Assembly (NCBI GenBank): GCA_026225295.1
Contig: JAMFSN010000309.1
Location: 62,001 to 126,000, forward strand
DNA length: 64,000 nt
Source: Frankia alni
GTDB taxonomy: Bacteria > Actinomycetota > Actinomycetes > Frankiales > Frankiaceae
Direction of reading: 5' to 3'
A model generated the notes under the pieces. That model saw only the letters and a list, made by a program, of their open reading frames with translations. It had not been told where the DNA came from and did no database searches. Shown piece by piece: positions 5,154 through 46,470 of this stretch (position 1 is its first letter; each line of letters starts with the position of its first letter). The position numbers and the translations under genes were made by a program.

Positions 5154-5180
5154 ATCTTAACATCGACGTCGATATAGACC
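5154..5180 (-). promoter_or_regulatory. Tandem TYGANN motif, site A (promoter of acyl-CoA ligase operon)
   Basis: On the minus strand three 6-bp units of TMKATN/TCGACG/TCGATG type run directly into TAAGAT (bases 5159-5154), which is placed as a -10 box 50 bp before ATG 5104. The core ATCGACGTCGAT is a perfect 12-bp palindrome. The AT-rich block stands out from the surrounding high-GC DNA and matches the seven other sites listed here. Confidence 0.6.
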
Positions 5181-5274
5181 TAGGGTCCGTTGCCGGGCGA
5201 TCGAACCACCGCTCGTGAGCGATGGGGGGCAGACCGGCGACATCGGCGGCCGCGCCCCCAGCTCGCCCAGCGGT

Positions 5275-5302
5275 ATATATCGACATCGATTTCGACTATA
5301 GT
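5275..5302 (+). promoter_or_regulatory. Tandem TYGANN motif, site B (promoter of SnoaL-like gene)
   Basis: Three units, TCGACA, TCGATT and TCGACT, are followed directly by TATAGT (5297-5302). The GTG start of the next gene lies at 5309, only 6 nt after this -10-like box and with no ribosome binding site, which implies a leaderless transcript. There is no good -35 box 17-18 bp upstream, so the repeats may stand in for it by binding an activator. Confidence 0.6.
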
Positions 5303-5308
5303 GCCACG

Positions 5309-5713
5309 GTGAGCGCACTCGCACCGTCTGACGACGCCGCCATCCGCAGCACCCTGGCGCTCTATTGCCACCGATGCGACGACGGTGACATCGCCGGGGT
5401 GGTTGATCTCTTCATCCCGGACGGGATCTTCACGTTCGGCCGAACGGTGGCTCGCGGTTCCTCGGCCCTCGCCGAGTTCTTCCACGCTTCCCAGGGCCGG
5501 CCCGAACAACGCGGCAAACACCTCACGGTCAACTCGGTGATGGAGCCGGGCACCGGCGTCGTCCGGGTGGTCTCCGACTTCCTGTTCCTGCGCCTGGACG
5601 AGAACCGCATCATCCCCGCGATGGCCGGCCGCTACGACGACACTCTGGTCAGGACGGCGGGCCGGTGGCAGATCGCTCGACGCGACGCGGTGCTCATGAA
5701 ACGACCCACCTGA
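5309..5713 (+). CDS. SnoaL/NTF2-like small protein (1)
   Basis: 134-residue single-domain protein of the SnoaL/NTF2-like alpha+beta cone fold. Family signs are the early helix AIRSTLALYCHRCDDGDI, the aspartate-rich loop VVDLFIPDGIFTFGRTVARG and the final strand GRWQIARRDAVLMKR. Relatives are cyclases, isomerases, dehydratases or ligand binders, and many have no known reaction, so the substrate is unknown. The start is GTG 5309 because it begins immediately after a promoter-like TATAGT with no Shine-Dalgarno, as in leaderless actinobacterial mRNAs. It is divergent from the acyl-CoA ligase operon, and both promoters carry the same tandem-hexamer motif. It converges on the P450 gene with a 19-bp gap. 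Confidence 0.8.
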   Translation: MSALAPSDDAAIRSTLALYCHRCDDGDIAGVVDLFIPDGIFTFGRTVARGSSALAEFFHASQGRPEQRGKHLTVNSVMEPGTGVVRVVSDFLFLRLDENRIIPAMAGRYDDTLVRTAGRWQIARRDAVLMKRPT

Positions 5714-5732
5714 CCGGTGCGCAGCCGGGTCC

Positions 5733-7130
5733 CTACGGGCGAGCGGTGACCGTCACCGGCATGCGCTTGACGCCGTTGACGAAGTTGCTCGTCAGGTATT
5801 CCGCTTCGCCCGTCTGGATCGTTGCCGCGCGCTCGGCCAGGCGGCCGAACAGCGCCCGGAGCTGGGCCCGCGCCAAGCTGGCCCCCAGGCAGAAATGGAC
5901 CCCACCCCCACCAAACCCGACGTGCGGGTTCGGGTCACGCGCGATGTCGAACCGTTCGGGTGCGTCGAAGGCTGCCTCATCCTGGTTGGCCGACTCGTAG
6001 AACATCACCACCGGGGCGCCCGCGGTGAGTGGCACGCCCGCCAGTTCCGTGTCACGCGTCGCCGTTCGGCGGAAGTGGATGACCGGGCTGGCGCACCGGA
6101 CAATCTCCTCGATCGTCGACGGGAGGAGGGACAGGTCGGCCTGGAGCCGCTCCCATTCACCGGGGTTCGCGGCAAACAGGCGCACGCCGTGACTCGTACT
6201 GGTCCGGGTCGTGTCGTTCGCCGCGGTGGCGAACAGGACGAAGATCCCACCGAGCATCTGGTCACTCAACGGCTCGCCGTCGATCGTCGAACTGACCAGC
6301 GTCGACAGGACGTCGTCGCCCGGGTGGGCGCGGCGGGCCGCGATGAGCTCGCCGGCGAGCCGATGCAGCGTCATGGCCGACTCGATCGCGACGGTGGTGC
6401 TGTCCTTGCCCTCCGTCGCGAACTCCGGGTCCTGGGCCGCGATCTGCCCTTCGGCGGCCCGATAGAACTCGGCGCGCATCGACTCGGGAATACCCATCAT
6501 GTTCGAGATCGTCCAGAGCGGCAGCTTCATGGCCAGGTCCCCGACCACATCTCCCCCGCCCCGCTCGACGAACGCGTCGACGATCCGGTTCGCTTCGGCG
6601 ACGATGCCGTCGTCGAGTCGCGCGATCCGCCGTGGGGTGAAAGCGCTGCTGACGATCCGCCGCATCTCGGTGTGCCGCGGTGGGTCCATGACCAGGAACG
6701 ACGCGTTGAGCTCCAGCAGGTCGACCGGAACGTCGCCCAGGCCCACCCCCTGGGCGGAGCAGAACAGGTCGGGGTGCCGGCTCACGTACTGCACGTCGGC
6801 GAGCCGGGTGACCGCCCAGAAGCCGCTTTTCTGGGGGGCGAGGCTGAAGACGCTGGGCTCCTGGTAGCTGACCGGCGCCGTGCGGCGCAGCTCCGCGAAG
6901 ACCGGCGCGCGTTCCGACGCGGGCTGGGCCCAGAAAGCACGCTGGGACAGTGACGGAGCGGTGAGCGCGGCGTTGGGCGCGGTGTTTTCCACGTCGGTGT
7001 CTTTCACGTCGGTGTCTTTCACGTCAATGCTCTCCCAATCGGCGCGCCCCACGGGAGGGTTTTCCCCGTCAGTCGCCATCGGACGGTGCCCATCGGCCTC
7101 GTCGCGCAGCTTGCGTTTCAGCGGCTCCAT
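5733..7130 (-). CDS. Cytochrome P450 (1)
   Basis: 465-residue bacterial P450 that should hydroxylate a small hydrophobic substrate using ferredoxin electrons. Motifs are the I-helix oxygen-binding segment FVLFATAANDTTRT (AxxDT), the K-helix EEIVR (ExxR) and the haem loop HVGFGGGGVHFCLGASLAR, whose Cys is the haem ligand. The protein is longer than the usual ~410 residues: the first ~60 residues are a low-complexity extension with the repeat DVKDTDVKDT, encoded by an 18-bp direct repeat near 6985-7025. A shorter start at the internal ATG (Met18, MATDGENPP) is possible; neither start has a strong ribosome binding site. No ferredoxin gene lies beside it. CYP125/CYP124-like sterol or terpenoid enzymes are plausible relatives, but the substrate is not determined. 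Confidence 0.92.
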   Translation of the reverse strand: MEPLKRKLRDEADGHRPMATDGENPPVGRADWESIDVKDTDVKDTDVENTAPNAALTAPSLSQRAFWAQPASERAPVFAELRRTAPVSYQEPSVFSLAPQKSGFWAVTRLADVQYVSRHPDLFCSAQGVGLGDVPVDLLELNASFLVMDPPRHTEMRRIVSSAFTPRRIARLDDGIVAEANRIVDAFVERGGGDVVGDLAMKLPLWTISNMMGIPESMRAEFYRAAEGQIAAQDPEFATEGKDSTTVAIESAMTLHRLAGELIAARRAHPGDDVLSTLVSSTIDGEPLSDQMLGGIFVLFATAANDTTRTSTSHGVRLFAANPGEWERLQADLSLLPSTIEEIVRCASPVIHFRRTATRDTELAGVPLTAGAPVVMFYESANQDEAAFDAPERFDIARDPNPHVGFGGGGVHFCLGASLARAQLRALFGRLAERAATIQTGEAEYLTSNFVNGVKRMPVTVTARP

Positions 7131-7467
7131 CGAGCTTCGCCTGCCGACCCGGGTACCACTGTGCGGCGCTGTCGTCCGTCATCCAGCTCCCCGTCCCATC
7201 CGATAGGACAATCGTGCAGTTTTGTCTCATCGGGCGTGCGGCACAGTACCCCGTGACGCCCTCCGAGGCCGCCCGTCCGTGGCGGTGGTCGAAGGATGGT
7301 TCGCCCACCGCCCAGACCGAGCCGGTAGGAGAGACCATCCTCATCAACCTCGGACTCGACGTCAACGTCGACACTAAGATACGGTCTGGCCCTGCCGGGG
7401 ACCGGCACGCCACTGATCGGCATGACTGGACGCTGGTCGCCGCCGGGCGCCCTCACGACGGAGGAAG
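7131..7467. other. Divergent intergenic region, P450 / SnoaL-like gene
   Basis: Non-coding on both strands apart from weak shadow frames. It holds site C of the tandem-hexamer motif (7356-7380) reading toward the SnoaL-like gene. Nearer the P450 there is a loose inverted repeat with GACAA/TTGTC arms around 7207-7227 that could serve the P450 promoter. Confidence 0.5.
7356..7380 (+). promoter_or_regulatory. Tandem TYGANN motif, site C
   Basis: Units TCGACG, TCAACG and TCGACA lead, after two bases, into TAAGAT (7375-7380), the same -10-like hexamer as at site A. The following gene starts 87 bp downstream at ATG 7468 with its own GGAGGAAG ribosome binding site. Confidence 0.6.
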
Positions 7468-7866
7468 ATGCTTCCCACCCCCGAGGATCACGTTGCCATC
7501 AGCGGTCTGCTCGCCCGCTATTGCCTGACCCTCGATCTCGATGACGTCGAGGGGTGGGTCGCGCTGTTCACCCCGGACGCCCGCTACGAGGTCTACGGGC
7601 GTACCTACAGCGGCCACGACGGATTGCGCGCCATGATGACCGCGGCGCCTGGTGGGCTGCACCTGGGCGGGCCGCCCGTGATCGAACTCCTCGATCCGGA
7701 TCACGCCCGTACGACCCGGAACCTGCAGTTCATCCCGTGCGAGGGCGTCGCCCGCAGCGCGGTTTATTCTGACGAACTCGTTCGGACGCCGGGCGGTTGG
7801 CGTATCGCCACGTGCCGGTGCCGGTTCCTCACCCCGAACGGTCTCGCTGACCGGCCGGCCCGCTAG
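7468..7866 (+). CDS. SnoaL/NTF2-like small protein (2)
   Basis: 132-residue NTF2-like protein similar in layout to the one at 5309: helix ISGLLARYCLTLDLDDVEGW, loop VALFTPDARYEVYGRTYSG and C-terminal GGWRIATCRCRF. The start ATG is preceded by GGAGGAAG. The first helices and the F-x-PDAxYxVYGRTxxG segment are shared with the 5309 protein, so the two are probably distant paralogues. The reaction is unknown; members of this fold act as ring isomerases, dehydratases or ligand carriers. It is transcribed away from the P450 gene under site C of the tandem-hexamer motif. Confidence 0.8.
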   Translation: MLPTPEDHVAISGLLARYCLTLDLDDVEGWVALFTPDARYEVYGRTYSGHDGLRAMMTAAPGGLHLGGPPVIELLDPDHARTTRNLQFIPCEGVARSAVYSDELVRTPGGWRIATCRCRFLTPNGLADRPAR

Positions 7867-8070
7867 CGGCGCCCTCGGGCCCCAGGTTCCCTTCGCTCCG
7901 GACCGGCACGCCGTGCACCTGGACGACGGAGCGCCCGGCACCGCCGACCTGTCGATCATCACCGTCCAGCGTCGCGTTCCGCTTCCGGTCCCGTCTCGAG
8001 CGGCACGGGCCGTACCGTCTCCACCCATCGGCGCCACCGGACGAGAATCGTGCCCCTGGATATCGGTTGC

Positions 8071-8778
8071 TCAGACGTCCGGTGTCGCTTTACCAGCCGC
8101 TGGACCCGGCCGTATCCCAAGGGCGTTGGTCCAGATCAAGGTGAGTTGATCAACGGCCGTCTCGAAGTCGAAAGTGGTGCTGGAGTTGAACAGGAAATCC
8201 GCGAAGTTCGCCACCATACCGCCCAGCGCCTGGGCGGCGTAAGCGGGGTCGATCGCCGGATCAGCGAGATTCTGCTCCTGCAGCAGGCGAGTACGACGAT
8301 CAATCACGCGCGCGAACTCTTCCTGCCGTTGCAGGCGTGTTGCGCGGACCTCCAGGTCGATCGTGGCAACCTGATTGATGACGTTTATGATCTTGTTGTT
8401 GGTCGCATAGGTCTGGAGATAGTGGCGGTTCGCCGCGCGGATACGCTCAACGGGATCGACATCAGCGGGCGCCGGATCGACCGTGAGCAAGTTGAGCTCG
8501 ACCGAATCCACGACCTCTCTGAAGATCTCCTCCTTGGATACAAAATATGTATAAAAGGAGCCGTGCGACATACCCGCAACATCGCAGATATCAGCGACCC
8601 GCGCATACAGGAAGCCGTCCCGCTCGAACACGATCCGGGCCGCTCGGACAAGTTGACCCCGGGATTCGCGGCCGCGGCTCGTACGGCCCGTACCGCGACG
8701 CTTCTCCGGGGGTTGACCGCCACGCCGAGTGCGACCGGCGCCAGGCCCCACAATTTGACGCTGGATGCGCTCAGACAT
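8071..8778 (-). CDS. TetR-family regulator (1)
   Basis: 235-residue TetR-type repressor. A basic tail of about 40 residues precedes the HTH domain, whose recognition segment is DVAGMSHGSFYTYFVSKEEI. The C-terminal ligand domain (about residues 90-230) is of normal length and has no recognisable effector signature. The start is ATG 8778 with AAAGGA upstream; an open frame continues 5' but has no family similarity. It is transcribed alone, away from the carboxyltransferase gene. Likely targets are its own promoter and neighbouring catabolic genes, but no clear palindrome was found next to its start. Confidence 0.88.
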   Translation of the reverse strand: MSERIQRQIVGPGAGRTRRGGQPPEKRRGTGRTSRGRESRGQLVRAARIVFERDGFLYARVADICDVAGMSHGSFYTYFVSKEEIFREVVDSVELNLLTVDPAPADVDPVERIRAANRHYLQTYATNNKIINVINQVATIDLEVRATRLQRQEEFARVIDRRTRLLQEQNLADPAIDPAYAAQALGGMVANFADFLFNSSTTFDFETAVDQLTLIWTNALGIRPGPAAGKATPDV

Positions 8779-9116
8779 ACGGATCCTTTCCGACTGACAG
8801 ATGGTAGCAAATAGGTGAGCCGATGCCGATACACGCACCCGGCACCGGGCCGTGCGGAGGCTCATGCGGCACGACCATCCCTCGAAGGGTCGCATTCCCA
8901 GTGTCAGGGGGCCCGTTTCGTTCCGGTCGGATCTGTACGGGGGTTGGACGCACCCACGCTCGTTGTCCCCCACCGCCCTACGCCCCACGATTCTTCGCGG
9001 TTACCCCTTGGCGTTGACCGTACGGAGGACCTCCGGGAAGGACTCACAGCGTTCTTCGAGCGACGGCCGCCCGGGTGGTCAGGCCGCTGAGCGCCGGCCG
9101 CCCGTTCCCAGCGCGG
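8779..9116. other. Intergenic stretch without recognised gene
   Basis: About 340 bp between the TetR start and the stop of the carboxyltransferase gene. Open frames on both strands lack family motifs and look like GC-driven shadows. It should contain the TetR promoter; no repeat or hairpin stood out. Confidence 0.4.
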
Positions 9117-10637
9117 CTACGGGACCACGACGCTGCGGCGGACGGGCTCCGGCGCAACCTGACGCGCCGACAAGCCACGGTGAAGTGCCGAGACCAGCGC
9201 ATCGCGCGTGTCGCTCGGCTCGACGAGCTCGTCGAAGCGCAGCTCCTGCGCCGACCGGAACGAGGCGGCCAGCTCCGCCTCGCGCAGAGCTTCAACCTGG
9301 TCGGCGCCCGCGCCCGTCGCGGAACTCTGCGCGAGGGCGCCCATGGCACCGAGGGTGGCGCCCGGATACGCGAGGGTCGCGACCTGACCGTCGAAGCTGG
9401 CCATCGCCATGACCATCGAGCCGAAGCCGTACGCCTTGCGCAGGGTGAGATGGACCTTGGGCGTTGTGGCCAGCGTCTGGGCGGCGAACATCCGGGCGCC
9501 GCTGCGCAGAACGCCGTCCCGCTCCGATCGGGAGCCGGGCAGCATGCCCGGGTTGTCGGCCAGAAACAGCAAGGGCACGTGGAAGGCGTCCGCGACCGAA
9601 ATGAAATGGGCGGCCTTGTCCGCGGCGTCCGCGTCGATCGCGCCGGCCAGGACCCGCGGCTGGTTGGCGACCACCGCGACCGGATCTCCACCCAGGTGGG
9701 CGAGCGCGCACACGACCGCCGAACCGAACGAGGGTTGAATCTCGAACCAGTCCGGCCGGTCGACGATGACGTCGATGACCCGGCGCATGTCGTAGGAGCG
9801 CCGAACGTCGCGCGGGACGAGGGCCATCAGTTCGGGCGTCGGTCGGGGCGCCGTCTCGGCTCCGTCGGCGGCCCGCGGCGGGTAGGCCCACGCGCTGGAC
9901 GGGAAGTACGCCAGGTACCGCCGGATCTCCTCGATCGCCGTGGTGTCGTCAACGGCCACGTTGTGGACCAGGCCGCTGCCGACGGCCACCTTCGGGCCAC
10001 CCAGACTCTCCTTGGAAACCTCCTCACCGGTTGACTGCTTGACGACCGGTGGACCAGCGGTGAAGATCGCGGCCTGCTCGGTCATCACGCAGAAGTCGGC
10101 CATCGGCGCGACCAGCGCCCCATGGCCGGCCGACGCCCCGAAAACGCCGCACACGACGGGAACTGTCCCCGAACATCGGGCCTGCGCGATCAGGTCCACC
10201 GGTGACCGCCCCCGGCCGCTTTCCAGAGGCCGGTGACCGGCCCCCTCGAGCAACATGATCAGCGGGATCTTGTTCCGCAGCGCGAGTTCGGCGATCCGGT
10301 ACCGTTTGGCGTTGCTCGCCGGTCCGATGCTGCCGGCCAGGGTGGTGAAGTCTTCCGCCCCGACCATCACGGGCCGGCCCGCCACGGCTCCCGATCCCGT
10401 GACAACCCCGTCGGCCGCGACCTCACCGCCGGCCAACGTGCCCAGCTCACGAAACGTACCGGCATCGAGCAACGCATCGATGCGGGCGCGCGCGTCCAGT
10501 TTCCCCGCCGCCCGGTGCCGGGCCAACCGGTCCGGCCCGCCCATGGCCCGACTCGCGGCCGCCCGCCGACGAAGGTCGACAACAGTCGTCTCCCACCCGC
10601 CCGGGTCCCCCGCCGTCACCACCCGAACCCCGAGCAC
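9117..10637 (-). CDS. Acyl-CoA carboxylase beta subunit (carboxyltransferase)
   Basis: 506-residue carboxyltransferase of the AccD/PccB type, which moves CO2 from carboxybiotin to an acyl-CoA. N-terminal signature is MGGPDRLARHRAAGKLDARA (about residues 32-51) followed by the RELGTLAG strand. The oxyanion-forming segment of the first crotonase-like half is GVFGASAGHGALVAPMAD, and the second half holds KAYGFGSMVMAMASF. Family length is normal. The GTG at 10637 is the longest start; the paired GTGs at 10622/10619, preceded by GGGG, are equally likely. No biotin carboxylase/carrier gene lies nearby, so it must share an alpha subunit encoded elsewhere. The substrate (acetyl-, propionyl- or longer acyl-CoA) is not resolved. 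Confidence 0.9.
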   Translation of the reverse strand: MLGVRVVTAGDPGGWETTVVDLRRRAAASRAMGGPDRLARHRAAGKLDARARIDALLDAGTFRELGTLAGGEVAADGVVTGSGAVAGRPVMVGAEDFTTLAGSIGPASNAKRYRIAELALRNKIPLIMLLEGAGHRPLESGRGRSPVDLIAQARCSGTVPVVCGVFGASAGHGALVAPMADFCVMTEQAAIFTAGPPVVKQSTGEEVSKESLGGPKVAVGSGLVHNVAVDDTTAIEEIRRYLAYFPSSAWAYPPRAADGAETAPRPTPELMALVPRDVRRSYDMRRVIDVIVDRPDWFEIQPSFGSAVVCALAHLGGDPVAVVANQPRVLAGAIDADAADKAAHFISVADAFHVPLLFLADNPGMLPGSRSERDGVLRSGARMFAAQTLATTPKVHLTLRKAYGFGSMVMAMASFDGQVATLAYPGATLGAMGALAQSSATGAGADQVEALREAELAASFRSAQELRFDELVEPSDTRDALVSALHRGLSARQVAPEPVRRSVVVP

Positions 10638-11181
10638 ACCCGACCCGTTCGCGACCGTCGCACAGGAAACCTCACTCCCTCAGACCCCGGTTCCGTCGCG
10701 AGGATCTCGACCGTGCCGCCAACGGTGACTCGGGTATCCCCGCGATCCGGCTCCGCCGGGGGCCGGATCGCGGGCCTGGAAAACTCCGCGGACGAGATCG
10801 ACACCCGGCAGCCGAGGGCCGCGAGCCGGTTACGGTGGTAGATGCCCTCGGCGTGGCCCCAGCCGATGGTCCACCATCGCCCCGGGAACACTCCTCCATA
10901 ACCTGATCCGATGGATCGGACCGGCCTGACCGGCCGCCGGTGGAGAGCCGCCGTGCCGCGCCACAGTAGAGCGGGACTCTCGTAAGAGGAACCCCCCAGT
11001 TTTCAAACTCGACGTTGAGGTTGACATTACCCTCACCCAGTGCCAGCGTTCGACCCCTCATGGAGGCCCGCCGTGCCCCCGCGGTCGGCCGTCCGCCTGA
11101 ACCCGCGGTGACCTGCATCGACCTCTGTTGAGACGGTCCGACCGACGGTCGACATCGGCAACCTGTGAGGGTGGGAGAAGA
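10638..11181. other. Divergent intergenic region upstream of solute-binding lipoprotein
   Basis: About 540 bp with no recognisable gene. It contains site D of the tandem-hexamer motif (11009-11033) and then a 148-bp leader to the lipoprotein start. That leader shares the word GTGCCAGCGTTCG (11040-11052) with the leader of the paralogous gene at 40240. A minus-strand open frame at 10616-10891 shows no family motif. Confidence 0.5.
11009..11033 (+). promoter_or_regulatory. Tandem TYGANN motif, site D
   Basis: Units TCGACG, TTGAGG and TTGACA are followed by TTACCCT. The same arrangement, in the same position about 149 bp before the start codon, occurs upstream of the paralogous lipoprotein gene (site H). 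The AT-rich flank immediately 5' (TTTTCAAAC) is also shared. Confidence 0.55.
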
Positions 11182-12423
11182 ATGCGCAGTACCACGTCAA
11201 AAATCGTTGTCGCGCTGGCGGTGATGGCCACGGCGGCCGCCTGCGGCAGCAGCGGTTCGTCCGGATCAAAAGGATCCGCGGGCGCCTCCGGCGCTCCGGC
11301 CTCCCACACGTACACCGTGGGCGTGCTGACCGATCTGACGGGTGTCGCCGCGTCCGGCAACAAGACCGCCGTCAACGGCATCAAGGCCGGCGTCAGCGTC
11401 GTCGCCAAGGACGGCTACACGATCAAGTACGTCGTCGCCGACACCGGCACGTCACCCGCCGGGGCCCTGTCCGGTGCGCAGAAGCTGGTGACCCAGAAGC
11501 ACGTGACGGCGGTGCTGGCGCACTCGGCGCTCACCTTCGCCGCTGCCGCCTATCTGACCGCGCATCACGTCCCGGTGATCGGCGCGGCCGAAGACGGACC
11601 GGAGTGGACCACGAGCAAGAACATGTTCTCGGTCTACGGTGCCCTGCACGTCGAGAAGGTCGCGACGACCGTGGGTAAGTTCTTCAAGGTCGCCGGTGCG
11701 ACGAACATCGGCTCCCTCGGCTACAGCATCGTCCCGTCATCGGCTGACTCCGCGAAAACGGCTGCCCTGTCAGCGGAGGCCGTCGGTCTTAAGACCGGGT
11801 ACCTCAACGCGCAGTTCGCGTTCGGCAGCACCGACGTCCAACCCATAGCACTCGCGATGAAGAAGGCCGGCGTGAACGGGGTCGCCCTCGAGGTCGACCC
11901 CAATACGTCCTACGCATTGATCAGCGCCCTGCGGCAGCAAGGCGTAAACCTGAAGGCGGCGGTGCTCCCGGTCGGCTACGGCGCGGATACCCTGCAGGCC
12001 GGCGCGGGTGCCCTCAACGCCGCGCAGAACGTGTATTACACCCTGCAGATGGAACCGGTCCAGATGAACACCCCGGCCACCAAGGCATTCCAGGCGGCCC
12101 TCGCCAACGTCGGGACAACCACCGTTCCCACCCTCGCCGAGTACGACGGGTACGCCGCTGTCCTGCTCCTCGTGCAAGGCCTGAAGGCCGCGGGCGCGCA
12201 CCCCACCCAAGCCACCCTGATCACCGCTCTGTCCGGTATCCACGCCTTCACCGCCGGGGGGCTGTTCGGCGACCACCCGCTGGACATCAACGACCGGGTC
12301 AGCCTCATCGGCGGAGCGGACAACTGCCTCTACTTCACCAAGCTAGTCGGCAAAGACTTCAAACTCGTCCCCGGCGCCGACCCGGTCTGCGGGGCCCCCA
12401 CCGGCAAAACCGTAGGCTCGTAA
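11182..12423 (+). CDS. ABC-type solute-binding lipoprotein (LivJ-like, type 1 fold) (1)
   Basis: 413-residue extracellular binding protein of the branched-chain-amino-acid (periplasmic-binding type 1) class. The lipoprotein signal ends in the lipobox TAAAC, with Cys21 as lipid anchor, followed by a GSSG-rich linker. The mature domain starts TYTVGVLTDLTGVAASGNK. Actinobacteria use such proteins for amino acids, aromatic acids, steroids and other hydrophobic compounds, so the ligand is open. ATG 11182 follows GGGAGAAG. No permease or ATPase genes are adjacent, so it must work with a transporter encoded elsewhere or act as a sensor. It is by eye about three-quarters identical to the protein at 40240, and both have the same motif and leader upstream. 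A strong hairpin follows the stop. Confidence 0.9.
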   Translation: MRSTTSKIVVALAVMATAAACGSSGSSGSKGSAGASGAPASHTYTVGVLTDLTGVAASGNKTAVNGIKAGVSVVAKDGYTIKYVVADTGTSPAGALSGAQKLVTQKHVTAVLAHSALTFAAAAYLTAHHVPVIGAAEDGPEWTTSKNMFSVYGALHVEKVATTVGKFFKVAGATNIGSLGYSIVPSSADSAKTAALSAEAVGLKTGYLNAQFAFGSTDVQPIALAMKKAGVNGVALEVDPNTSYALISALRQQGVNLKAAVLPVGYGADTLQAGAGALNAAQNVYYTLQMEPVQMNTPATKAFQAALANVGTTTVPTLAEYDGYAAVLLLVQGLKAAGAHPTQATLITALSGIHAFTAGGLFGDHPLDINDRVSLIGGADNCLYFTKLVGKDFKLVPGADPVCGAPTGKTVGS

Positions 12424-12440
12424 CGGCGGCCCAACCTCGC

Positions 12441-12526: not shown

Positions 12527-13258
12527 TTACAGACGCGCGAGCAGGATCGCGGCCAGCTCGGCCGGCCTGCTCACCATTGCGTTGTGGCAGGTGTCGATTT
12601 CGACGACCTCCCCGACCCCGCCGAGTGCGTGGATTGCCCGGTGCTGCCCGGCAACCGGCTGCACCCGGTCATGCAATGTCATAATCCAGGTGCGGGGTAC
12701 GGCTGGGGCGAGCCCGGAGCGGTCGGCGGGCTCACCGAGGACCCGGAAAGAATCCTGGTAGAGCCGGGCGAGGGTGAAGGCGCGCTGCTCCGCCGTCATC
12801 CCGTTGCACAGCAGCCACCTGGCCAGCGGGCGTGGGAACGGCGGTGCGGGTTTGCCCGCGGCCGCTTTTCGGCGGGTGAACCAGCCGACGGCACCGGTCC
12901 GGGTGTCCGCGATCGATTGGCCCTGGGGCGGTACGGCCGCAGAGATGAGCACCATTCGGCGGACGCGGGCCGGCCCGAGCCGGGCCACGACGCCCGGGAC
13001 AGTGATGCCGGCCAGTGAGTGCCCAACGATGATGAACTGCTCGATGCCCGCCGAGTCGATCTGCGCGACCGTACTGTCAACCCAGTCGGCGACCGTAACC
13101 TTCGAGAGATCCGCCGGGACCGACCGGCGCCCTGGTAAATCGACCGCGAGTACCGGCGTGCCGCGGGACTGACGCTCGATCTCGGCCACCGTAAGTTCCC
13201 AACAGTCGCCAGCGTGTTGGCTACCGTGCACCAGCACAATGCCGGTACGTCCAGTCAT
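12527..13258 (-). CDS. Alpha/beta hydrolase (esterase-like)
   Basis: 243-residue alpha/beta hydrolase. The oxyanion-side motif is VLVHGSQHAG, the nucleophile elbow is VGHSLAG (Ser near residue 85), and the catalytic His is probably in EIDTCHNAMVSRP near the C-terminus. This compact form resembles methyl-ester, polyneuridine-esterase and salicylate-esterase type enzymes, which split small esters. ATG 13258 has GGAG 13 nt upstream, a slightly long spacing. About 190 bp upstream on the same strand is site E of the tandem-hexamer motif, set between a TTGACA -35 and a TAGGAT -10. It ends facing the lipoprotein gene with a shared hairpin. Confidence 0.88.
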   Translation of the reverse strand: MTGRTGIVLVHGSQHAGDCWELTVAEIERQSRGTPVLAVDLPGRRSVPADLSKVTVADWVDSTVAQIDSAGIEQFIIVGHSLAGITVPGVVARLGPARVRRMVLISAAVPPQGQSIADTRTGAVGWFTRRKAAAGKPAPPFPRPLARWLLCNGMTAEQRAFTLARLYQDSFRVLGEPADRSGLAPAVPRTWIMTLHDRVQPVAGQHRAIHALGGVGEVVEIDTCHNAMVSRPAELAAILLARL

Positions 13259-13451: not shown

Positions 13452-13481
13452 ATCCTACATCGATATCGACATCGATGTCAA
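13452..13481 (-). promoter_or_regulatory. Tandem TYGANN motif, site E, with -35/-10 boxes
   Basis: Minus strand: TTGACA (13481-13476), an 18-bp spacer made of TCGATG, TCGATA and TCGATG units, then TAGGAT (13457-13452). The repeats fill the whole spacer of a near-consensus promoter reading toward the hydrolase at 12527-13258. This is the clearest view of where the motif sits relative to core promoter elements. Confidence 0.65.
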
Positions 13482-13482
13482 T

Positions 13483-14723: not shown

Positions 14724-15362
14724 TCAGGCGGGGGCCCGGACGAGCGCCCGAACGAGGTAGCGGTCGAGGAACTCGCGCTTGGCGCGCAGTGACAGCCCGA
14801 GCCACGGCGGCGTCATGAGCGTGATGGAAACGACGTTCAGCCACCGGGTGGTCTCGCGGAGGTCGAGGTCGGCGTGCAACTGCCCGTCGGCCCGCCACTG
14901 CTCGAGCAGCGGTGCGAGGTGGCGGTGCATCTGGTCGAGGACGGGTTCTGAGGCGTACTCCAACGCGGCCACCCAGGATCGGCTGCCGGGCGAAAACAGC
15001 GCCTCGTTGACCTCGTCGCCGGCCACCCGCCCGATCGCGTTGAGGATGAGTTCAGGGAGCGACCGAGCTGCGTCGCCGGGCGATCCCAGTGACCGTACGA
15101 CGGCCTCCAGGCCGGAATCGAGCCGGTCCAGCAGAACCGCGAGGATCACCTCCTCGCGGCTCCCGAAGTACCGGTACACCGTCATGCGCGAGACGCCGGC
15201 CTCGGCGGCGACCTCGTCGATGGGGACCTTCGCGGTGCCGCGACGGGCGATGCAGCGGGTGGCGGCGGCGAGGAGGCGCCGGCGGGCCTCGTCATCCTTC
15301 AGGGCACTGGCGGTGCCCCACCTGGTCAGCCGGGTCCTGTCGCCGGGCGGTGGTCCGGTCAC
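14724..15362 (-). CDS. TetR-family regulator (2)
   Basis: 212-residue TetR-type regulator with HTH segment VAAEAGVSRMTVYRYFGSREEV at about residues 48-69 and a ligand domain carrying the phrases NEALFSPGSRSWVAALEYASEPV and LHADLDLRETTRWLN. The same phrases appear in the regulator at 28504, so the two are paralogues, possibly with related ligands or operators. The start is GTG 15362: there is no ribosome binding site, but TAGCAT lies exactly 7 nt before it, consistent with a leaderless transcript. It lies 75 bp downstream of an LLM oxidoreductase gene pointing the other way round the same strand. Confidence 0.87.
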   Translation of the reverse strand: MTGPPPGDRTRLTRWGTASALKDDEARRRLLAAATRCIARRGTAKVPIDEVAAEAGVSRMTVYRYFGSREEVILAVLLDRLDSGLEAVVRSLGSPGDAARSLPELILNAIGRVAGDEVNEALFSPGSRSWVAALEYASEPVLDQMHRHLAPLLEQWRADGQLHADLDLRETTRWLNVVSITLMTPPWLGLSLRAKREFLDRYLVRALVRAPA

Positions 15363-17251: not shown

Positions 17252-17280
17252 TTGACGTCGAGCTCGACTTCGATAACGAT
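17252..17280. promoter_or_regulatory. Tandem TYGANN motif, site F
   Basis: TTGACG, TCGAGC, TCGACT and TCGATA run in tandem into AACGAT, with the perfect palindrome GTCGAGCTCGAC inside. Read on the plus strand it would place TTGACG as -35 and TAACGA as -10, about 50 bp before the SnoaL-like gene at 17332. The symmetry means it could also act on the minus-strand EthD-like/LLM unit. Confidence 0.55.
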
Positions 17281-17331: not shown

Positions 17332-17838
17332 GTGGTGATGACCACCGAGGAGTCACTGGAGGAGTTACGGGGACGCCTACGTCTCCTGGAGGACGAGCGG
17401 GCCGTCACGCGCGTCGTCCTGTCGTACGGACCGGCCGCGGACGCTGGTCAAGCGGAACGCGCCGGATCGTGGTGGCTGGCGGACGGCGAATACGACTGGG
17501 ACGCGGACGGTGATCCCCATCAGGGCAGCGCCGGAGTAGAGCGCATGCTGCGGACCGAAGGTCACCTGGGCCTGATCCGTAACGGTGCGGCCCACGTCGC
17601 CGGGCCACTGCTGATCAACGTCGAAGCTGACCACGCGACCGCCCTCAACTATTCGCTGATCATGCGCCGGGAACAGGATCGCTTTTACCTGTGGCGGGTG
17701 AGCGTCGCCCGCTGGGAGTTGGAGAGGCACAATTCCCGGTGGCGGGTCCGCCGCCGGACCAACCGCCTTCTCGACGATTCCGGAGTCGGCCGCGAGCTGC
17801 TGGGCGACACGTTGGCAAAAGTCTTCGACGACATTTAG
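17332..17838 (+). CDS. SnoaL/NTF2-like protein (3)
   Basis: 168-residue SnoaL-type protein. It opens with a helical segment LEELRGRLRLLEDERAVTRVVLSYG, then SWWLADGEYDWDADGDPHQG, a histidine in HVAGPLLINVE, and a C-terminal arginine-rich strand WELERHNSRWRVRRRTNRL. It is longer than the two SnoaL-like proteins at 5309 and 7468 and diverged from them, but has the same fold pattern. Candidate starts are GTG 17332, GTG 17335 and ATG 17338, all in frame; GGGGAG at 17315-17320 favours the first. The function is unknown. It leads a plus-strand group with an SDR enzyme (42 bp on) and an acyl-CoA ligase. Confidence 0.78.
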   Translation: MVMTTEESLEELRGRLRLLEDERAVTRVVLSYGPAADAGQAERAGSWWLADGEYDWDADGDPHQGSAGVERMLRTEGHLGLIRNGAAHVAGPLLINVEADHATALNYSLIMRREQDRFYLWRVSVARWELERHNSRWRVRRRTNRLLDDSGVGRELLGDTLAKVFDDI

Positions 17839-40233: not shown

Positions 40234-40239
40234 TTCGGA

Positions 40240-41472
40240 TTACTGGCTCACGGTCTTGCCGGGGATCGGGGCGCCACAGATCGGATCGGCACCGGGGACG
40301 AGCTTGAAGTCCGAACCGACCAGCTTGGTGAAGTAGAGGCAGTTGTCCGATCCGCCGATGAGGCTCACCCGGTCGTTGATGTCCAGCGGGTGGTCACCGA
40401 ACAGTCCCCCGGCCGTGAAGGCGTGGATGCCGGACAGGGCCGTGATCAGGGATGCCTGGGTGACGTTCGAGCCCGCCGCCTTCAGGCCCTGCGCCAGAAG
40501 CAGGATGGAGGCGTACCCGTCATACTCCGCGAGCGTGGGCACGGTGGTAACCCCGACCTGATGGAGGGCCGCCTCAAATGCCTTGGTACCCGGGGTGTTC
40601 ATCTCGACCGGCTCCATCTGCAGCGCGTAATACACGTTCTGCGCCGCGTTGAGTGCGCCCTGTCCGGCCTGCAGGATGTCCGCGCCGAATCCGATCGGAA
40701 GCACCGCGGCCTTCAGATCGACCCCCTGCTGCCGCAGAGAGCTGATCAACGCGTACGACGTGTTGGGGTCGACATCCAGCGCGATCCCATCGACACCGGC
40801 GCTCTTCATCGCCAGTGCCACAGGCTGCACGTCGGTGCTACCGAACGGGAACTTCGCGTTGATGTACCCGGACTTCAGACCGACCGCCTGCGCCGACACG
40901 CCAGCGGCTCGCGCGGACTCGGCCGACGACGGCGCGATGTCGTAGCCGAGTGACCCGACGGTCGTCGCCCCGACCAGCTTGTAGAACTTGCCCAGCGTCG
41001 TCGCGACCTTCTCGGTGTGCAACGCGCCGTAAACCGGGAACATGTTCTTGCTCGTGGCCCACTCCGGCCCGTCCTCGGCCGCGCCGATCACCGGGACGTG
41101 ATGCGCGGTCAGATAGGCGGAAGCGGCGAAGGTAAGCGCCGAGTGCGCAAGGACGACCGTGACGTGCTTCTGCGTCACCAGCTTCTGCGCACCGGACAGC
41201 GCCCCGGCGGGCGACGAACCGGTGTCAACGGCAACGTACTTGACCGTGTACCCGTCCTTCGCCACCGCGGCGATGCCGGCCTTGATGCCGGTCACCGCCG
41301 TCTTGTTGCCGGACGCGGCCACACCCGTCAGATCGGTCAGCACGCCCACCGTGATCGTGCGACCGCCGGACACGGACCCCTTCGCCGCCGACGAGCCGCT
41401 GCTACCGCAGGCGGCGGCGACCGTGGCCAGCACCGCCAGCACGACCAGGAGCCTCGATCTGCTACCACGCAT
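40240..41472 (-). CDS. ABC-type solute-binding lipoprotein (LivJ-like, type 1 fold) (2)
   Basis: 410-residue paralogue of the protein at 11182, aligned without large gaps from TVGVLTDLTGVAASGNKTAV to the C-terminal FTKLVGSDFKLVPGADPICG. The signal peptide ends in a lipobox (VAAAC), followed by GSSGSS. ATG 41472 has GGTAGGAAG upstream. No permease or ATPase genes adjoin it either. The leader, site H of the tandem-hexamer motif and the terminal hairpin all have counterparts at the other copy, so the whole transcription unit was duplicated or acquired twice. The ligand is unknown; a hydrophobic acid or ring compound is a guess from the neighbourhood. Confidence 0.9.
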   Translation of the reverse strand: MRGSRSRLLVVLAVLATVAAACGSSGSSAAKGSVSGGRTITVGVLTDLTGVAASGNKTAVTGIKAGIAAVAKDGYTVKYVAVDTGSSPAGALSGAQKLVTQKHVTVVLAHSALTFAASAYLTAHHVPVIGAAEDGPEWATSKNMFPVYGALHTEKVATTLGKFYKLVGATTVGSLGYDIAPSSAESARAAGVSAQAVGLKSGYINAKFPFGSTDVQPVALAMKSAGVDGIALDVDPNTSYALISSLRQQGVDLKAAVLPIGFGADILQAGQGALNAAQNVYYALQMEPVEMNTPGTKAFEAALHQVGVTTVPTLAEYDGYASILLLAQGLKAAGSNVTQASLITALSGIHAFTAGGLFGDHPLDINDRVSLIGGSDNCLYFTKLVGSDFKLVPGADPICGAPIPGKTVSQ

Positions 41473-41862
41473 GGTCTTCCTACCCTTACTGATTGCCGAC
41501 GGACCGTCGGTCAGAGCGTCTACGGGAGCTGGTGCGAATCGCCGCAGGTCGGGCGGCCGGCCCCCGGTAAGGCGAGGCACCGCGGACCCTCACGACGGCC
41601 CGAACGCTGGCACCGGCCCGCAGCAATGTCAAATTCTACGTCGAGTTCGAAAACGGGCGGGTTCCCAACGCGGGAGCCACGTTCTCCTACGACCCGGCCT
41701 GGCGATCTTTCGCCGGCGCCGCCGGAAAGAAGGCCGTACCTGGTCGGGGTGGGGTGCGTCGAACGGCTCGTGCGCCGCTCCGCGAAAATCTGCGACAGCC
41801 GGCCGCGCGAGCGGTACGCCGGGCCGGCCGACTGAAGGTCCACCCGGACGTGGTCTTGACAA
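41473..41862. other. Intergenic region upstream of solute-binding lipoprotein (2)
   Basis: No gene seen. It holds a 149-bp leader, with GTGCCAGCGTTCG on the minus strand (41613-41601) shared with the leader at 11040, and site H of the tandem-hexamer motif. The remaining 200 bp up to the TetR stop codon show nothing recognisable. Confidence 0.5.
41622..41644 (-). promoter_or_regulatory. Tandem TYGANN motif, site H
   Basis: Minus strand: TCGACG, TAGAAT, TTGACA followed by TTGCT, with the AT-rich CGTTTTCGAAC just upstream. It matches site D base for base at most positions and lies at the same distance from the paralogous gene's start codon. It is slightly more decayed, the middle unit having TAGA for TYGA. 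Confidence 0.55.
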
Positions 41863-42561
41863 TCACTCTTCAAGCGAATCGGCCCCTGGAGGACTCGGGA
41901 TGACCGAGGGCGGCCCCTGCGCCCCGAGCTGTGGCTGACGAATGGTCGCGACGACCGCCGCGATGGCTCTCTTGATCGCCGCGATCGCCTGCTCGTCGGT
42001 CAGGCGCCACTCCGCGACCAGGTGCTGGTAGGCGACCGGGCTCCACAGCACGTCGAGCGCCCCGGCCGCGCTCTCCACCTCGACCGGTGACAGGTGGGGG
42101 GCGGCCGCCGCGACCGCCGCGTGCAGCGCCTCCCGCCGTTCCCGGCCGACCGTGACGAGCGTCGGGTCGTCGACCTGCGGACCGATCGGACCGGCGGCGA
42201 ACGAGGACAGCGTCGCGAAGACCCGTTCGGCGACGTCCGCGACCTCCTCCAGCCGGATGCCTTCGTAGGTCACGCCGGCGTCGGCCTGCAGACGCTCCAG
42301 GACGGCGCCGTGCAGCTCGCGCTCGTTCGCGAAGTGCCGGAAGACCGTGCTCTCGCTGACACCGGAGTTCTTGGCGACGGCGCGGAAGGTCAGCTCCCGC
42401 CAGTCCCAGGACGGATACCCGTGGGTGAGCCGCGCGCCCGCGGCCACGATCCGCTCGCGCGTTTCGGCGGCCCGCTGACGCCGCACCGGACTGTCATACC
42501 GACGTCGATCGGCCCGGTCCCGCGTAGCGGCCGTCAACGCGGGGGTTGACTCAGCTCCCAT
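41863..42561 (-). CDS. TetR-family regulator (5)
   Basis: 232-residue TetR-type regulator with a basic N-terminal arm and the HTH segment AVAKNSGVSESTVFRHFANEREL (about residues 61-83). The insertion GYPSWDWRELTF just before it is unusual. Starts ATG 42561 or GTG 42567 are both possible; GGGGG lies 10 nt before the latter. It is divergent from the sulfotransferase gene with 96 bp between them, so that pair is the likely target. Confidence 0.86.
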   Translation of the reverse strand: MGAESTPALTAATRDRADRRRYDSPVRRQRAAETRERIVAAGARLTHGYPSWDWRELTFRAVAKNSGVSESTVFRHFANERELHGAVLERLQADAGVTYEGIRLEEVADVAERVFATLSSFAAGPIGPQVDDPTLVTVGRERREALHAAVAAAAPHLSPVEVESAAGALDVLWSPVAYQHLVAEWRLTDEQAIAAIKRAIAAVVATIRQPQLGAQGPPSVIPSPPGADSLEE

Positions 42562-42657
42562 ATTCACGGAAGTTTACCCCCGCGATTCCGGGTCGATCGA
42601 CGCCAGGACCTTCGCGAGCCGGTCCGACCCCGGAGGTCACCACGGCAGGGAGGCACG

Positions 42658-43881
42658 ATGGACGACCCTGATGATCTACTGAAAGCCGCCGGTGCCGAAA
42701 CAGGCCTTTCCGACTTCGGGGAGGACACGTTCCGGGACGGCCTCTCGCGCCTGATCGGCGCGGTCCAGCGCGAGGCGGGGCTGAACAAGGTCGGCGACGC
42801 GACGCTGCGCGCCCTGCTCCTGCGCCTACTGAAGAACCGATTACAGATCGAGGCCTGGTACCGCCGCCACCCGGAGACCGACGACGAGCCGATCGAACGC
42901 CCGCTGTTCGGGTTGGGGCTGCCCCGCACCGGCTCGACGGCGCTGGCCGCGCTTCTGGGCCAGGACCCCGGCGCTCGTTCGCTGCTCGTGTACGAGTCGG
43001 GCGAGCCCTGCCCGCCGCCGTCGACGGTGACGGGTCCCGACCCGCGCATTGCCCGCTCGCGGGCCGGAATGGAGATGCAGCAGGCCGCGGCGCCCCGACT
43101 GAAATCCCTCCTTCCCTCCTCCCCGACCGGCCCGCACGAGTGCCAGGATCTGATGGCGCTCGACTTCAAGTCGCACTACTTCCAGGCCTTCGCGCACGTG
43201 CCGTCGTATTCGGCGTGGCTGATCGATGCCGACCTGACGTCCACCTACCGGTACGAACGCCGCGCCCTGAAGCTGCTGCAGTGGGGAGGCGAGCGGCGGC
43301 CCTGGCGGCTGAAGTGCCCGACCCACCTGCTGTTCCTCGACCACCTGGACCGGGTGTTCCCCGACGCCCGCTTCGTCATGACCCACCGCGACCCGACGGA
43401 GGTCATGGTCTCGGTCGCCGACGTGTACGCGGAGGTCGGCCGCCTCTTCGCCGATGAGGTCGACCAGCCCTATCTGGGCCGTCTCAACGTCGAGCAGTGG
43501 TCGGAGGGGATGCGGCGGGCGCTCGCGTTTCGGGACGCGGGTAACGACGACCGCTTCTTCGACCTGGACTTCCGCGCGATGCAACGCGATCCGCTGGGCC
43601 AGGTCCGGCGCTTGTACGACTGGCTCGGCGAACCGGTGTCGCCCGGTTTTGAGGCCGGGATGCGGCGCTGGTGGCACGAGAACGCCGAGACACGCGCCCA
43701 GAACGTCCACCCCGATCCGGCCGCGTTCGGCATCGACCTGGAGCGTGTTCGGCCGTTGTTCGCCGACTACGCCGCGCGGTTCACCGCCCCGGCCGGGGTG
43801 GCTGGACCGGTTGGAGCGCTCCCCCCCGGGGGCGTACCCGAACCGACGAACGACCTGCCACCCGACGAAGGGACGACCTGA
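42658..43881 (+). CDS. PAPS-dependent sulfotransferase family protein
   Basis: 407-residue sulfotransferase. The 5'-phosphosulfate loop is FGLGLPRTGSTALAALLG (about residues 84-101), and the 3'-phosphate region is FPDARFVMTHRDPTEVMVS; a conserved WRLKCPTHLLFLDHL precedes it. This family (often called sulfotransferase_3 or STF2-like) occurs in mycobacteria and Frankia, where the acceptor is frequently unknown; steroids and lipids are common guesses. ATG 42658 follows GGGAGG. It overlaps the next gene by one base (TGATG), so the two proteins should work together. A proline-rich tail follows the catalytic domain. Confidence 0.88.
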   Translation: MDDPDDLLKAAGAETGLSDFGEDTFRDGLSRLIGAVQREAGLNKVGDATLRALLLRLLKNRLQIEAWYRRHPETDDEPIERPLFGLGLPRTGSTALAALLGQDPGARSLLVYESGEPCPPPSTVTGPDPRIARSRAGMEMQQAAAPRLKSLLPSSPTGPHECQDLMALDFKSHYFQAFAHVPSYSAWLIDADLTSTYRYERRALKLLQWGGERRPWRLKCPTHLLFLDHLDRVFPDARFVMTHRDPTEVMVSVADVYAEVGRLFADEVDQPYLGRLNVEQWSEGMRRALAFRDAGNDDRFFDLDFRAMQRDPLGQVRRLYDWLGEPVSPGFEAGMRRWWHENAETRAQNVHPDPAAFGIDLERVRPLFADYAARFTAPAGVAGPVGALPPGGVPEPTNDLPPDEGTT

Positions 43882-44915
43882 TGGCCATCGACGTGACCGG
43901 CGGTTTCGACGAAGAGCGCGAGTTCGTCTTCGCCACCCAACCCACCGACCCCGAGGCCCGCGAGTCGGTGAACGCCTGGATCTGGGATGACAGTGGCGCC
44001 TTCGGTATCGCGCGGACCGGGGTCGAGGCCGTCGCCGACCAGTGGCAGACGCACAACGTCCAGTTCAACCTGGCGTTCGCGGACGGGCGGGTCTACACCC
44101 TGGCCGGTCCCGGACCGACGCACGACCCCCTCGGCAAGGACGGGCGGGCGCGCATCCTCGGCTCGGGGCCGCTGCGGTTCGAGCTCGTCGAGCCGTTCCG
44201 GCACCTGCGCATGACCTACGACGGCCCGGCCCTGACGACGACGGCCGAGGCACAGATCAAAGGCTGGATGCCCGCGCCCGGCTCGGCCCAGGTCCACGTG
44301 ACCGCCGACATCGACATCTTCCCGGCGGCGCCCCCGTGGGAGAACGGCTCGACCAGCGACGAGGCCCGGCACATCCTGGCGACGCAGGAGGAGGGTTTTC
44401 TCATCGGCTACCCGTGGCGCTTCGAGCAGCTGGGCCGGGCCCGCGGCACGATCGTCGTCGGCGGCGAGACCCACCACCTTGACGGCGGCGCGAACCGCAT
44501 CCGCCGGCAGGGCGTCCGTCGCCTCGCGTCCTTCTGGGGTCACGTGTGGCAGGCCGCGCTCTTCCCCAGCGGGCGCGGTTTCGGCTTCCAGGTCTACCCC
44601 CCGCGCAAGGACGGCAAGACGACCTACAACGAGGGCTACGTCGTCGACGACGGCCAGCAGCTGCCGGCCCGGGTGGTGCGCGCCCCGTTCCTGCATTCAC
44701 TCGAGGCCAGCGGCGAGGACGTCACGTGTGTCCTGGAAACACCGCACGGGACGATCGAGATCGGCGGTGAGACGCTGATGTCGACTTTCATGATCATGCC
44801 GCCGGAGGTCGGTGGTGGCATGCAGCTGCAGCAGGCGCTCGCGCGCTACCGCTGGGACGGTGAGTCGGCCGTCGGCATGCTCGAGCGGTCCAGCACGCCC
44901 GACCGAATGGACTGA
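43881..44915 (+). CDS. Conserved hypothetical protein coupled to sulfotransferase
   Basis: 344-residue protein of two beta-rich halves with no membrane segment or signal peptide. Notable stretches are ESVNAWIWDDSGAFGIART, FELVEPFRHLRMTYDGPAL, GARGTIVVGGE-type strands and ASFWGHVWQAALFPSGRGFGF. The pattern of Trp- and Gly-rich strands recalls the lipocalin-like two-domain fold of CrtC/Diels-Alderase relatives (DUF7064/7065 type), but this is a low-confidence resemblance and no catalytic site is assigned. Its ATG shares a base with the upstream stop, so it is made with the sulfotransferase. It may bind or modify the same acceptor. Confidence 0.75.
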   Translation: MAIDVTGGFDEEREFVFATQPTDPEARESVNAWIWDDSGAFGIARTGVEAVADQWQTHNVQFNLAFADGRVYTLAGPGPTHDPLGKDGRARILGSGPLRFELVEPFRHLRMTYDGPALTTTAEAQIKGWMPAPGSAQVHVTADIDIFPAAPPWENGSTSDEARHILATQEEGFLIGYPWRFEQLGRARGTIVVGGETHHLDGGANRIRRQGVRRLASFWGHVWQAALFPSGRGFGFQVYPPRKDGKTTYNEGYVVDDGQQLPARVVRAPFLHSLEASGEDVTCVLETPHGTIEIGGETLMSTFMIMPPEVGGGMQLQQALARYRWDGESAVGMLERSSTPDRMD

Positions 44916-45082
44916 CCTGGCAATCGTGGGCGCAGGCTCCGGGGCGAAGGACGGCCCGGGGAAACGGATCGGGGGCAGTCCCGACACCGCGCCCCGGTCC
45001 GTGCCCAGTAGCCGTGGGTCGGCCTTCCGGCGCCGGCCCACGGCCCGCCGGCGGGGCCGCTCATTGACCATTTCGAGATCAG

Positions 45083-46009
45083 TCAGACCGTGTCGTCTGG
45101 ATGTGACCGGCCTGCCGGCCCGGGTGCGGCCGGGCCCGCAATTTCGCGCTGCCAGGCGACGGCCAGTTGGGTGCGGTTCGCAGAGCCGGTCGCTTCCATC
45201 GCGTGCCCAACGTGATGCTTGACAGTCTCGACGCTGATGCACAGGGTGACGGCGATCTCCCGATTTGAGCGGCCCTGGGCGACCAGGCCGACAACGTCGC
45301 GTTCGCGGGCCGACAGCTTGGCGGCGACCGCCGGGACCGGCTCCGACCGGAGGTGGAAATGCAGCAGGTTGCCCAGGTGCCGCCCGACCGCGCCGAACAC
45401 CATCTGGTCACGCGGTCCGAAAGCGTACGGCCGCGGGTCGGAGACAGATATCAGCCCCGCGACCCCGTGCGCCGTCGTGAGTCGGGCAAGGACTATCGCT
45501 TGAAGCCCGCGGGCCTTGAGTAATCGCCGCAGATACCGGCGGATCTCCGGACGGCCCGGCGGCCCAAACTCTTCCAATGTCCACAAACCGCGCACCCCCA
45601 TCGCATTCGGCTCGTCGGGCTCGATGAACGCCTCAAACCTCTGGTGGTACTCCTGTAACGCGGCCGCCATCTCGAATCCGAGCCCGTGACCGACCGGCGC
45701 ACGGTCCTGGAGTGCCCGCTCGAACGACGAGCCCACGAAAAAGGCGCTATGGCGGTAGCCGAGATAGCGGGCCAATCCCTCGAGTGCGGTTCGCTGGAAC
45801 ACCGGCAGGGTCGACGCCCGCTCACAATCCTCTACGGTCCGCAGGATTCCCCGCAGCTCGCTTGAACCAAGGCTGATCCCAGGCCGGTCCGGTAACGGAC
45901 GCGGTCCCGCAGAAGGCTTCGGGAGGTGACCGGGCCCGGCACCGGCGTCCCGGCCGGCGGACGTGTCACTCCCCGCGTCGCGATAGCCATGGGACGGAAA
46001 TGCTGTCAC
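45083..46009 (-). CDS. GAF-LuxR type regulator
   Basis: 308-residue regulator. Residues about 50-220 look like a GAF-type sensor domain (FQRTALEGLARYLGYRHSAF, then GLWTLEEFGPP and HGVAGLISVSDPRPYAF). The C-terminus is a LuxR HTH: LSARERDVVGLVAQGRSNREIAVTLCISVETVKHHV. The N-terminal ~45 residues are Gly/Pro-rich and probably disordered. GTG 46009 is preceded by GGAGG at five-base spacing. It stands alone. Similar proteins in mycobacteria and related genera control sets of lipid or sterol catabolic genes, so it is one candidate owner of the tandem-hexamer motif. Confidence 0.86.
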   Translation of the reverse strand: MTAFPSHGYRDAGSDTSAGRDAGAGPGHLPKPSAGPRPLPDRPGISLGSSELRGILRTVEDCERASTLPVFQRTALEGLARYLGYRHSAFFVGSSFERALQDRAPVGHGLGFEMAAALQEYHQRFEAFIEPDEPNAMGVRGLWTLEEFGPPGRPEIRRYLRRLLKARGLQAIVLARLTTAHGVAGLISVSDPRPYAFGPRDQMVFGAVGRHLGNLLHFHLRSEPVPAVAAKLSARERDVVGLVAQGRSNREIAVTLCISVETVKHHVGHAMEATGSANRTQLAVAWQREIAGPAAPGPAGRSHPDDTV

Positions 46010-46091
46010 GGACGCCTCCGCAATCGTTGACCGCCTTCAGGCCCGCGGCGGGAGTGAGCTGTCCTCGCGTAGAAGGGGGATTCAGGCACGT

Positions 46092-46434
46092 TTACTTGCC
46101 GACCGTCGGTAGGTTGGCCAGGTTGTCGAAGTGCGCGCGAATCCGAGCCGCTGACTTTCGGGTGCCCGGCTGGTCCACCGCACGGCCGTTGGCCTGCTCA
46201 AACGCGTCCACGCGGCTCAGGCCGCCCCCGTCGTGTCATACCCGTCGTCCACGAACCGCCCGCCGCCGATACAGCCACGCCCGCCACGTCGAGATTGACC
46301 AGGACGGGCCCGACCAGGCCGGCGAACCGCGCGCCGACCGCGTCCTCCCTCCCCGACCTCGGCCCGATCCGCACGGTCGGCGGTTCGCGCACCTCTGACC
46401 GGACCGCTCGGCCGCCGTCCCCTGGACCGGTCAC
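46092..46434 (-). pseudogene. Possible decayed gene under site G
   Basis: Downstream of site G, minus-strand phrases in shifting frames read ARFAGLVGPVLVNLDVAGV, then RFVDDGYDTTGAA, then SRVDAFEQANGRAVDQPG and RIRAHFDNLANLPTVGK before TAA. Two frameshifts would join them into one protein end. I do not recognise the family and the assignment rests on compositional feel and the promoter in front. Confidence 0.25.
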
Positions 46435-46438
46435 CCGG

Positions 46439-46470
46439 ATCCTAACATCAATATCGACCTCAATATCGAT
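46439..46470 (-). promoter_or_regulatory. Tandem TYGANN motif, site G
   Basis: Minus strand: TCGATA, TTGAGG, TCGATA, TTGATG, then TAGGAT (46444-46439). On the plus strand a 12-bp unit, TCAATATCGAYM, is repeated twice. It has four to five hexamers, the longest array of the eight sites, yet no intact gene follows. Confidence 0.55.

Follow-up and report, generated by a model that had tools for sequence, protein, structure and literature searches.

Tandem TYGANN arrays in register with Frankia promoters as probable operators of an uncharacterized TetR clade

INTRODUCTION

Eight intergenic sites in a 64,000-nucleotide stretch of a Frankia alni contig (hereafter, the window) carry short runs of the unit TYGANN in exact 6-bp steps, and the question that they raise is which protein reads this repeat and what it does at the promoters that lie beside it. 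A search of the literature, covering open-licence papers, returned no description of the motif. The first-pass annotation of the window, made from the sequence alone, had proposed a common regulatory site shared by the promoters of SnoaL-like, LivJ-like, FadD and hydrolase genes, and had named a GAF-LuxR protein and several TetR proteins as candidate regulators. Here, we describe the arrays on the whole contig and in related genomes, and we argue that they are probably the operators of one TetR clade. If this clade is the binder, as seems probable, the arrays would reveal a large unstudied gene control circuit, the members of which can be predicted from sequence.

RESULTS

Distribution of the arrays. 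The window is part of a contig of 148,844 bases (C403), over the full length of which we ran a strict regular expression requiring three units of TCGA, TTGA, or TCAA in exact 6-bp steps. Genes were called with a codon-score caller made for this analysis, and gene starts are accordingly approximate. The comparison genomes were taken as Frankiaceae; the family name is our reading, the named relative being Frankia sp. AgB1.9.

The strict expression gave 16 matches forming 10 distinct arrays, where dinucleotide shuffles of the intergenic DNA led us to expect 0.02 matches (maximum, 1), so that the recurrent motif that had been read by eye is real. All 16 matches are intergenic, although intergenic DNA makes up only 15.4% of the contig (0.154^10 = 8e-9 for the 10 arrays). 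The earlier claim that the arrays are confined to intergenic DNA thus extends to the four arrays that lie on the contig outside the window, and placement at random, in genes as often as upstream of them, is not what the contig displays. Three of these four arrays (G000:C403:1214, 19192, and 29531) are each upstream of a Peripla_BP_6 (LivJ-like) solute-binding gene, while the last (G000:C403:38197) is flanked by a CoA-transferase gene and a TetR gene. Arrays of the same type were found across Frankiaceae. Other contigs of this genome carry the 16-mer within genes as well, at what appears to be the background coding frequency, and genome-wide matches therefore need an intergenic filter; the four-unit pattern alone picks up coding repeats, and the genome scan needed gene calls or the addition of a -10 box.

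The window sites and the genes that adjoin them are as follows.

5154-5172, minus strand: site A, two perfect TYGANN units and -10 TAAGAT, upstream of an operon of FadD-like ligase, acyl-CoA dehydrogenase, and APH genes
5280-5302, plus strand: site B, three units and -10 TATAGT, 7 bp before the GTG of a SnoaL_4 gene
7356-7380, plus strand: site C, three units, the middle one inverted, and TAAGAT, upstream of a SnoaL_4 gene
11003-11033, plus strand: site D, four units and TACCCT, upstream of a Peripla_BP_6 (LivJ-like) gene
13452-13481, minus strand: site E, TTGACA and three units, 18-bp spacer, TAGGAT, upstream of an alpha/beta hydrolase gene
17252-17273, plus strand: site F, four units, no clear -10, upstream of SnoaL_4, SDR, and acyl-CoA ligase genes
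41627-41650, minus strand: site H, four units, one imperfect, no clear -10, upstream of a Peripla_BP_6 gene
46439-46469, minus strand: site G, four units and TAGGAT; the next minus-strand gene is GAF-LuxR 45083-46009
3494-5104, minus strand: acyl-CoA ligase, target of site A, FadD17/steroid-22-oyl-CoA synthetase-like, below model cut-offs
5309-5713, plus strand: SnoaL_4 protein, target of site B
7468-7866, plus strand: SnoaL_4 protein, target of site C
11182-12423, plus strand: Peripla_BP_6 solute-binding protein, target of site D
12527-13189, minus strand: alpha/beta hydrolase, target of site E, start uncertain, with an ATG at 13453 within the -10 box
17332-17838, plus strand: SnoaL_4 protein, first gene downstream of site F
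40240-41472, minus strand: Peripla_BP_6 solute-binding protein, target of site H
45083-46009, minus strand: GAF-LuxR protein, perhaps controlled from site G and discarded as a candidate regulator
8071-8778, minus strand (ATG at 8778): TetR family regulator, candidate array binder

All eight sites that had been listed by eye are present, but the three to five units ascribed to each hold only in part, since site A has two perfect units and site H contains an imperfect one. The same applies to the -10 hexamer said to adjoin every array: a TANNNT box is found at sites A, B, C, D (there only as TACCCT), E, and G, but not at F and H. Site E is exactly as it had been described, with three units, TCGATGTCGATATCGATG, filling the 18-bp spacer between TTGACA and TAGGAT; TTGACA is itself a fourth unit in the same register. 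At site B, the 7 bp that separate the -10 box from the GTG (window 5297-5309) suggest a leaderless SnoaL message. A paralogous promoter with the same layout as that of site B is present on another contig of this genome (G000:C341).

Array anatomy and promoter register. Between intergenic TYGA words, on the contig and at other Frankiaceae loci, the distances peak only at 6, 12, and 18 bp, while within genes the word pairs follow the codon period only. From Frankiaceae, we assembled a set of 67 different intergenic arrays with three to six units each, and within about 17 bp of their ends there are 36 to 37 TANNNT boxes, compared with about 3 expected; 17 of 36 such boxes share one of the six possible phases, in the register of the array (p=2e-5). 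The commonest exact form across the genomes is TYGANN-TYGACM-TCGANN-N12-TANNGT (24 genomic matches), in which, as read from the sequence, the second unit is the predicted -35 hexamer (TYGACA) at an 18-bp spacer. Three units make up a 16-bp palindrome, TYGANNTCGANNTCRA, which is perfect at locus L244 (TTGACGTCGATGTCAA), and because the half-site is self-complementary and the spacer measures three units, operator and promoter can share one 6-bp register. Asymmetric units occur in mixed orientation, as with the inverted TCAA of site C, and show no clear excess of convergent pairs; pointing both ways, they indicate that the repeat does not run strictly in one direction.

Variants of this layout were seen at individual loci. 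Upstream of genes of the TetR_38275 type (L163, L165, L166, L167, and L168), there is a near-invariant palindrome, TTTCRACGTCGACGTYGAAA, with conserved flanks, which is perhaps the preferred site of that sub-clade. At L139, about 220 bp upstream of a TetR gene, the array is nested inside longer inverted arms (CCTCTATGTTGACGTCAACTTCGACATAGAGG).

Genes downstream of the arrays. The families found downstream of arrays include SnoaL_4 proteins, acyl-CoA ligases, acyl-CoA dehydrogenases, SDRs, LLM oxidoreductases, amidohydrolase_2, thioesterase, and LivJ-like binding proteins; with three of the four new contig arrays and the other Frankiaceae in agreement, the proposal of a common regulatory site on this set of promoters is upheld. 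The ligase of site A scores best, below cut-off, against the models for steroid-22-oyl-CoA synthetase and FadD17, which makes a steroid- or fatty-acid-like substrate of the regulon plausible. In two related genomes (G005 and G041), the LivJ-like binding protein family has grown to 26 to 27 copies, and arrays precede only some of them.

Association with a TetR clade. The TetR protein encoded at 8071-8778 and its paralogue at contig positions 38275-39033 (41 to 46% identical) define an uncharacterized clade, hereafter 8071/38275. Both have the N-terminal TetR helix-turn-helix (PF00440; E=1.5e-8 for 8071-8778, the call of which was truncated at the 5' end, and 3.1e-11 for its paralogue), and the AlphaFold model of 8071-8778 (pLDDT 83) is all-helical, with nine helices, its top Foldseek matches being TetR regulators. 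Of the 35 Frankiaceae genomes, 20 carry the clade. Matches to the array-plus-promoter pattern number 67 in these, spread over 19 of the 20 genomes, compared with 8 in the 15 others and 1 in the reversed controls (p=7e-6); four-unit matches are intergenic in 23 of 38 cases where the TetR is present, as opposed to 2 of 22 where it is absent and nearly all of them are coding (p=1e-4). These genomes are related and their counts not independent, and the presence of the clade and that of the catabolic regulon are phylogenetically correlated.

The position of the arrays points in the same direction. Where a clade gene has an array nearby, it lies directly upstream of that gene in 17 of 21 cases, compared with 1 of 10 cases for a different TetR encoded in the cluster; about two-thirds of clade loci had no strict array within 1.5 kb, and a search upstream of the window's own TetR gene, 8071-8778, found none. 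In actinobacterial families other than Frankiaceae, 9 of 20 clade homologues (38 to 53% identity) show words of two or three units ahead of their own start, such as TTGACGTCGATGTCAA and TTGAGGTCAACGTCAA, where about 0.3 would be expected. The suggestion that TetR proteins are candidate regulators is well supported and can be narrowed to clade 8071/38275. Two genomes of genus g3 that lack the clade share an identical array-like site, TCGAGATTGACATTGACATACCCT (L022/L023; G008:C59 and G002:C140), in a gene-poor island of 47% GC, which counts against the clade as the binder.

DISCUSSION

The reading that we favor, to which we assign a probability of roughly 0.78, is that the arrays are operators of TetR clade 8071/38275, locked to the promoter, at which bound dimers would block RNA polymerase until a ligand releases them. 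The most serious competitor, though an unlikely one, is that another regulator of the cluster, be it TetR 14724-15362 or several unrelated TetR proteins, binds the arrays and that clade 8071/38275 is merely a member of the regulon. The window encodes at least five TetR proteins, and arrays lie near TetR 14724 at 10 of 24 loci, so that a second regulator may be at work; but these nearby arrays are not in its own promoter, its recognition helix is unlike that of clade 8071/38275, and it is absent from the array-bearing genomes G032, G007, G011, and G034. As the sole regulator, TetR 14724 is ruled out by that absence together with the own-promoter test. The GAF-LuxR protein fares far worse, even though site G lies upstream of its gene in this genome: orthologues (about 50% identity or more) are present in Frankia genomes without arrays, and only 1 of 30 such loci, its own, has an array nearby, so that we consider this candidate of the first-pass annotation very improbable.

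That one unit does act as a -35 hexamer at an 18-bp spacer could also mean that the arrays are nothing but reiterated -35 elements, i.e., tandem TTGAC-like hexamers for a single sigma factor. This is improbable, since the units reach past the -35 position on both sides, most of them are TCGANN rather than TTGACA, many arrays include an inverted TCAA, and the arrays track a TetR clade rather than all Frankiaceae. Simple repeats arising by chance or from codon usage in GC-rich DNA do account for most four-unit matches in genomes without the clade, which are coding repeats such as TCGAGGTCGAGG; as an explanation of the contig arrays, this origin has a negligible probability, since the tests of intergenic placement and promoter register contradict it, with the 16 strict matches far above expectation and the 9- and 15-bp coding periods absent.

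Binding by clade 8071/38275 could operate as follows: (i) one TetR dimer would recognize three units, i.e., the 16-bp palindrome TYGAC-N6-GTCRA, with half-sites 12 bp apart; (ii) since TCGA reads identically on both strands, an array of four or five units would present further palindromes at 6-bp shifts, on which a second or third dimer may sit on the other face of the DNA, much like a QacR-type dimer of dimers; (iii) since the array keeps a fixed register with the promoter, one of its units being the -35 hexamer, dimers sitting on it would shut out RNA polymerase, occlusion being the simplest mode for an array that covers the -35 element and the spacer; and (iv) a ligand would free the promoter, most likely a CoA thioester or metabolite derived from the steroid- or fatty-acid-like compound that the products of the controlled genes would take up and break down. 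A bolder and rather doubtful extension is that the self-complementary TCGA half-site makes the operator an extendable lattice, along which three or more dimers can stack helically at 6-bp intervals, with repression graded by unit number and several paralogous TetR proteins sharing one code. If true, this would be a polymerizing mode beyond the dimer of dimers, spread across a large Frankia catabolic regulon.

These associations connect a TetR clade that is unstudied and widespread in actinobacteria with a readable DNA code and with a dispersed catabolic regulon of the Frankia family, plausibly for steroid- or fatty-acid-like compounds. The arrays also offer a clean system for asking how TetR proteins bind overlapping operators.

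Comparison with known systems. The sites of SARP regulators (heptamers) and of BldC are direct repeats that end just upstream of the -10 element, and SARP sites contain TCGAG-like words; their steps are about 11 bp for SARP and 9 to 10 bp for BldC. In the Frankia arrays, in contrast, word distances show no peaks other than those at 6, 12, and 18 bp, and the protein associated with these arrays is a TetR. SARP, BldC, and MerR site types were excluded by step size or by the palindrome. The TetR proteins of the KstR/KstR2 and FadR type control target genes of the same kind (ligases, acyl-CoA dehydrogenases, and transport), and a CoA-thioester ligand, as for these proteins, is probable for the Frankia clade. 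Similarity to them is limited to the helix-turn-helix, with scores far under the NCBIfam KstR and FadR cut-offs, and their operators differ from the Frankia arrays.

Among PDB structures, EthR is the one that the model of TetR 8071-8778 most resembles, and its operator, like the arrays, is built of TYGA words. EthR is reported to octamerize on a 55-bp operator. We read the spacing directly from a mycobacterial locus (L349), where the ethR-ethA intergenic region has the words TCGA, TCGA, TTGA, TCGA, and TTGA at steps of 9, 11, 9, and 11 bp (L349:1500-1560), unlike the 6-bp steps of Frankia. The clade protein is only 20% identical to EthR and not an orthologue, and whereas EthR has a divergently transcribed monooxygenase gene as its target, the Frankia arrays lie on a dispersed catabolic regulon. 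Shared words on another lattice, together with the low identity, indicate that the Frankia system is not EthR itself.

The 6-bp step had been taken at first as unlike TetR operators, a view that is not borne out: a run of three units is palindromic over 16 bp, and TetR proteins of the QacR, CprB, and Rv0078 type occupy overlapping palindromes with dimers staggered relative to each other (PMC6018408, PMC4150764, PMC6016246). In QacR and CprB, two dimers share overlapping palindromes, one bound to each face of the DNA (PMC6018408, PMC4150764), and in Rv0078 (LoaR/EthR2), two dimers, likewise on opposite faces, are staggered by 7 bp (PMC6016246). The 12-bp spacing of half-sites in the arrays is compatible with the 37 to 38 Angstrom that separate the recognition helices in QacR and CprB (PMC4150764). 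The Frankia arrays resemble all three in consisting of overlapping palindromes, offset by 6 bp where the stagger of Rv0078 is 7 bp. They differ in their sequence words and in running to five or six units, at which length they could hold more than two dimers.
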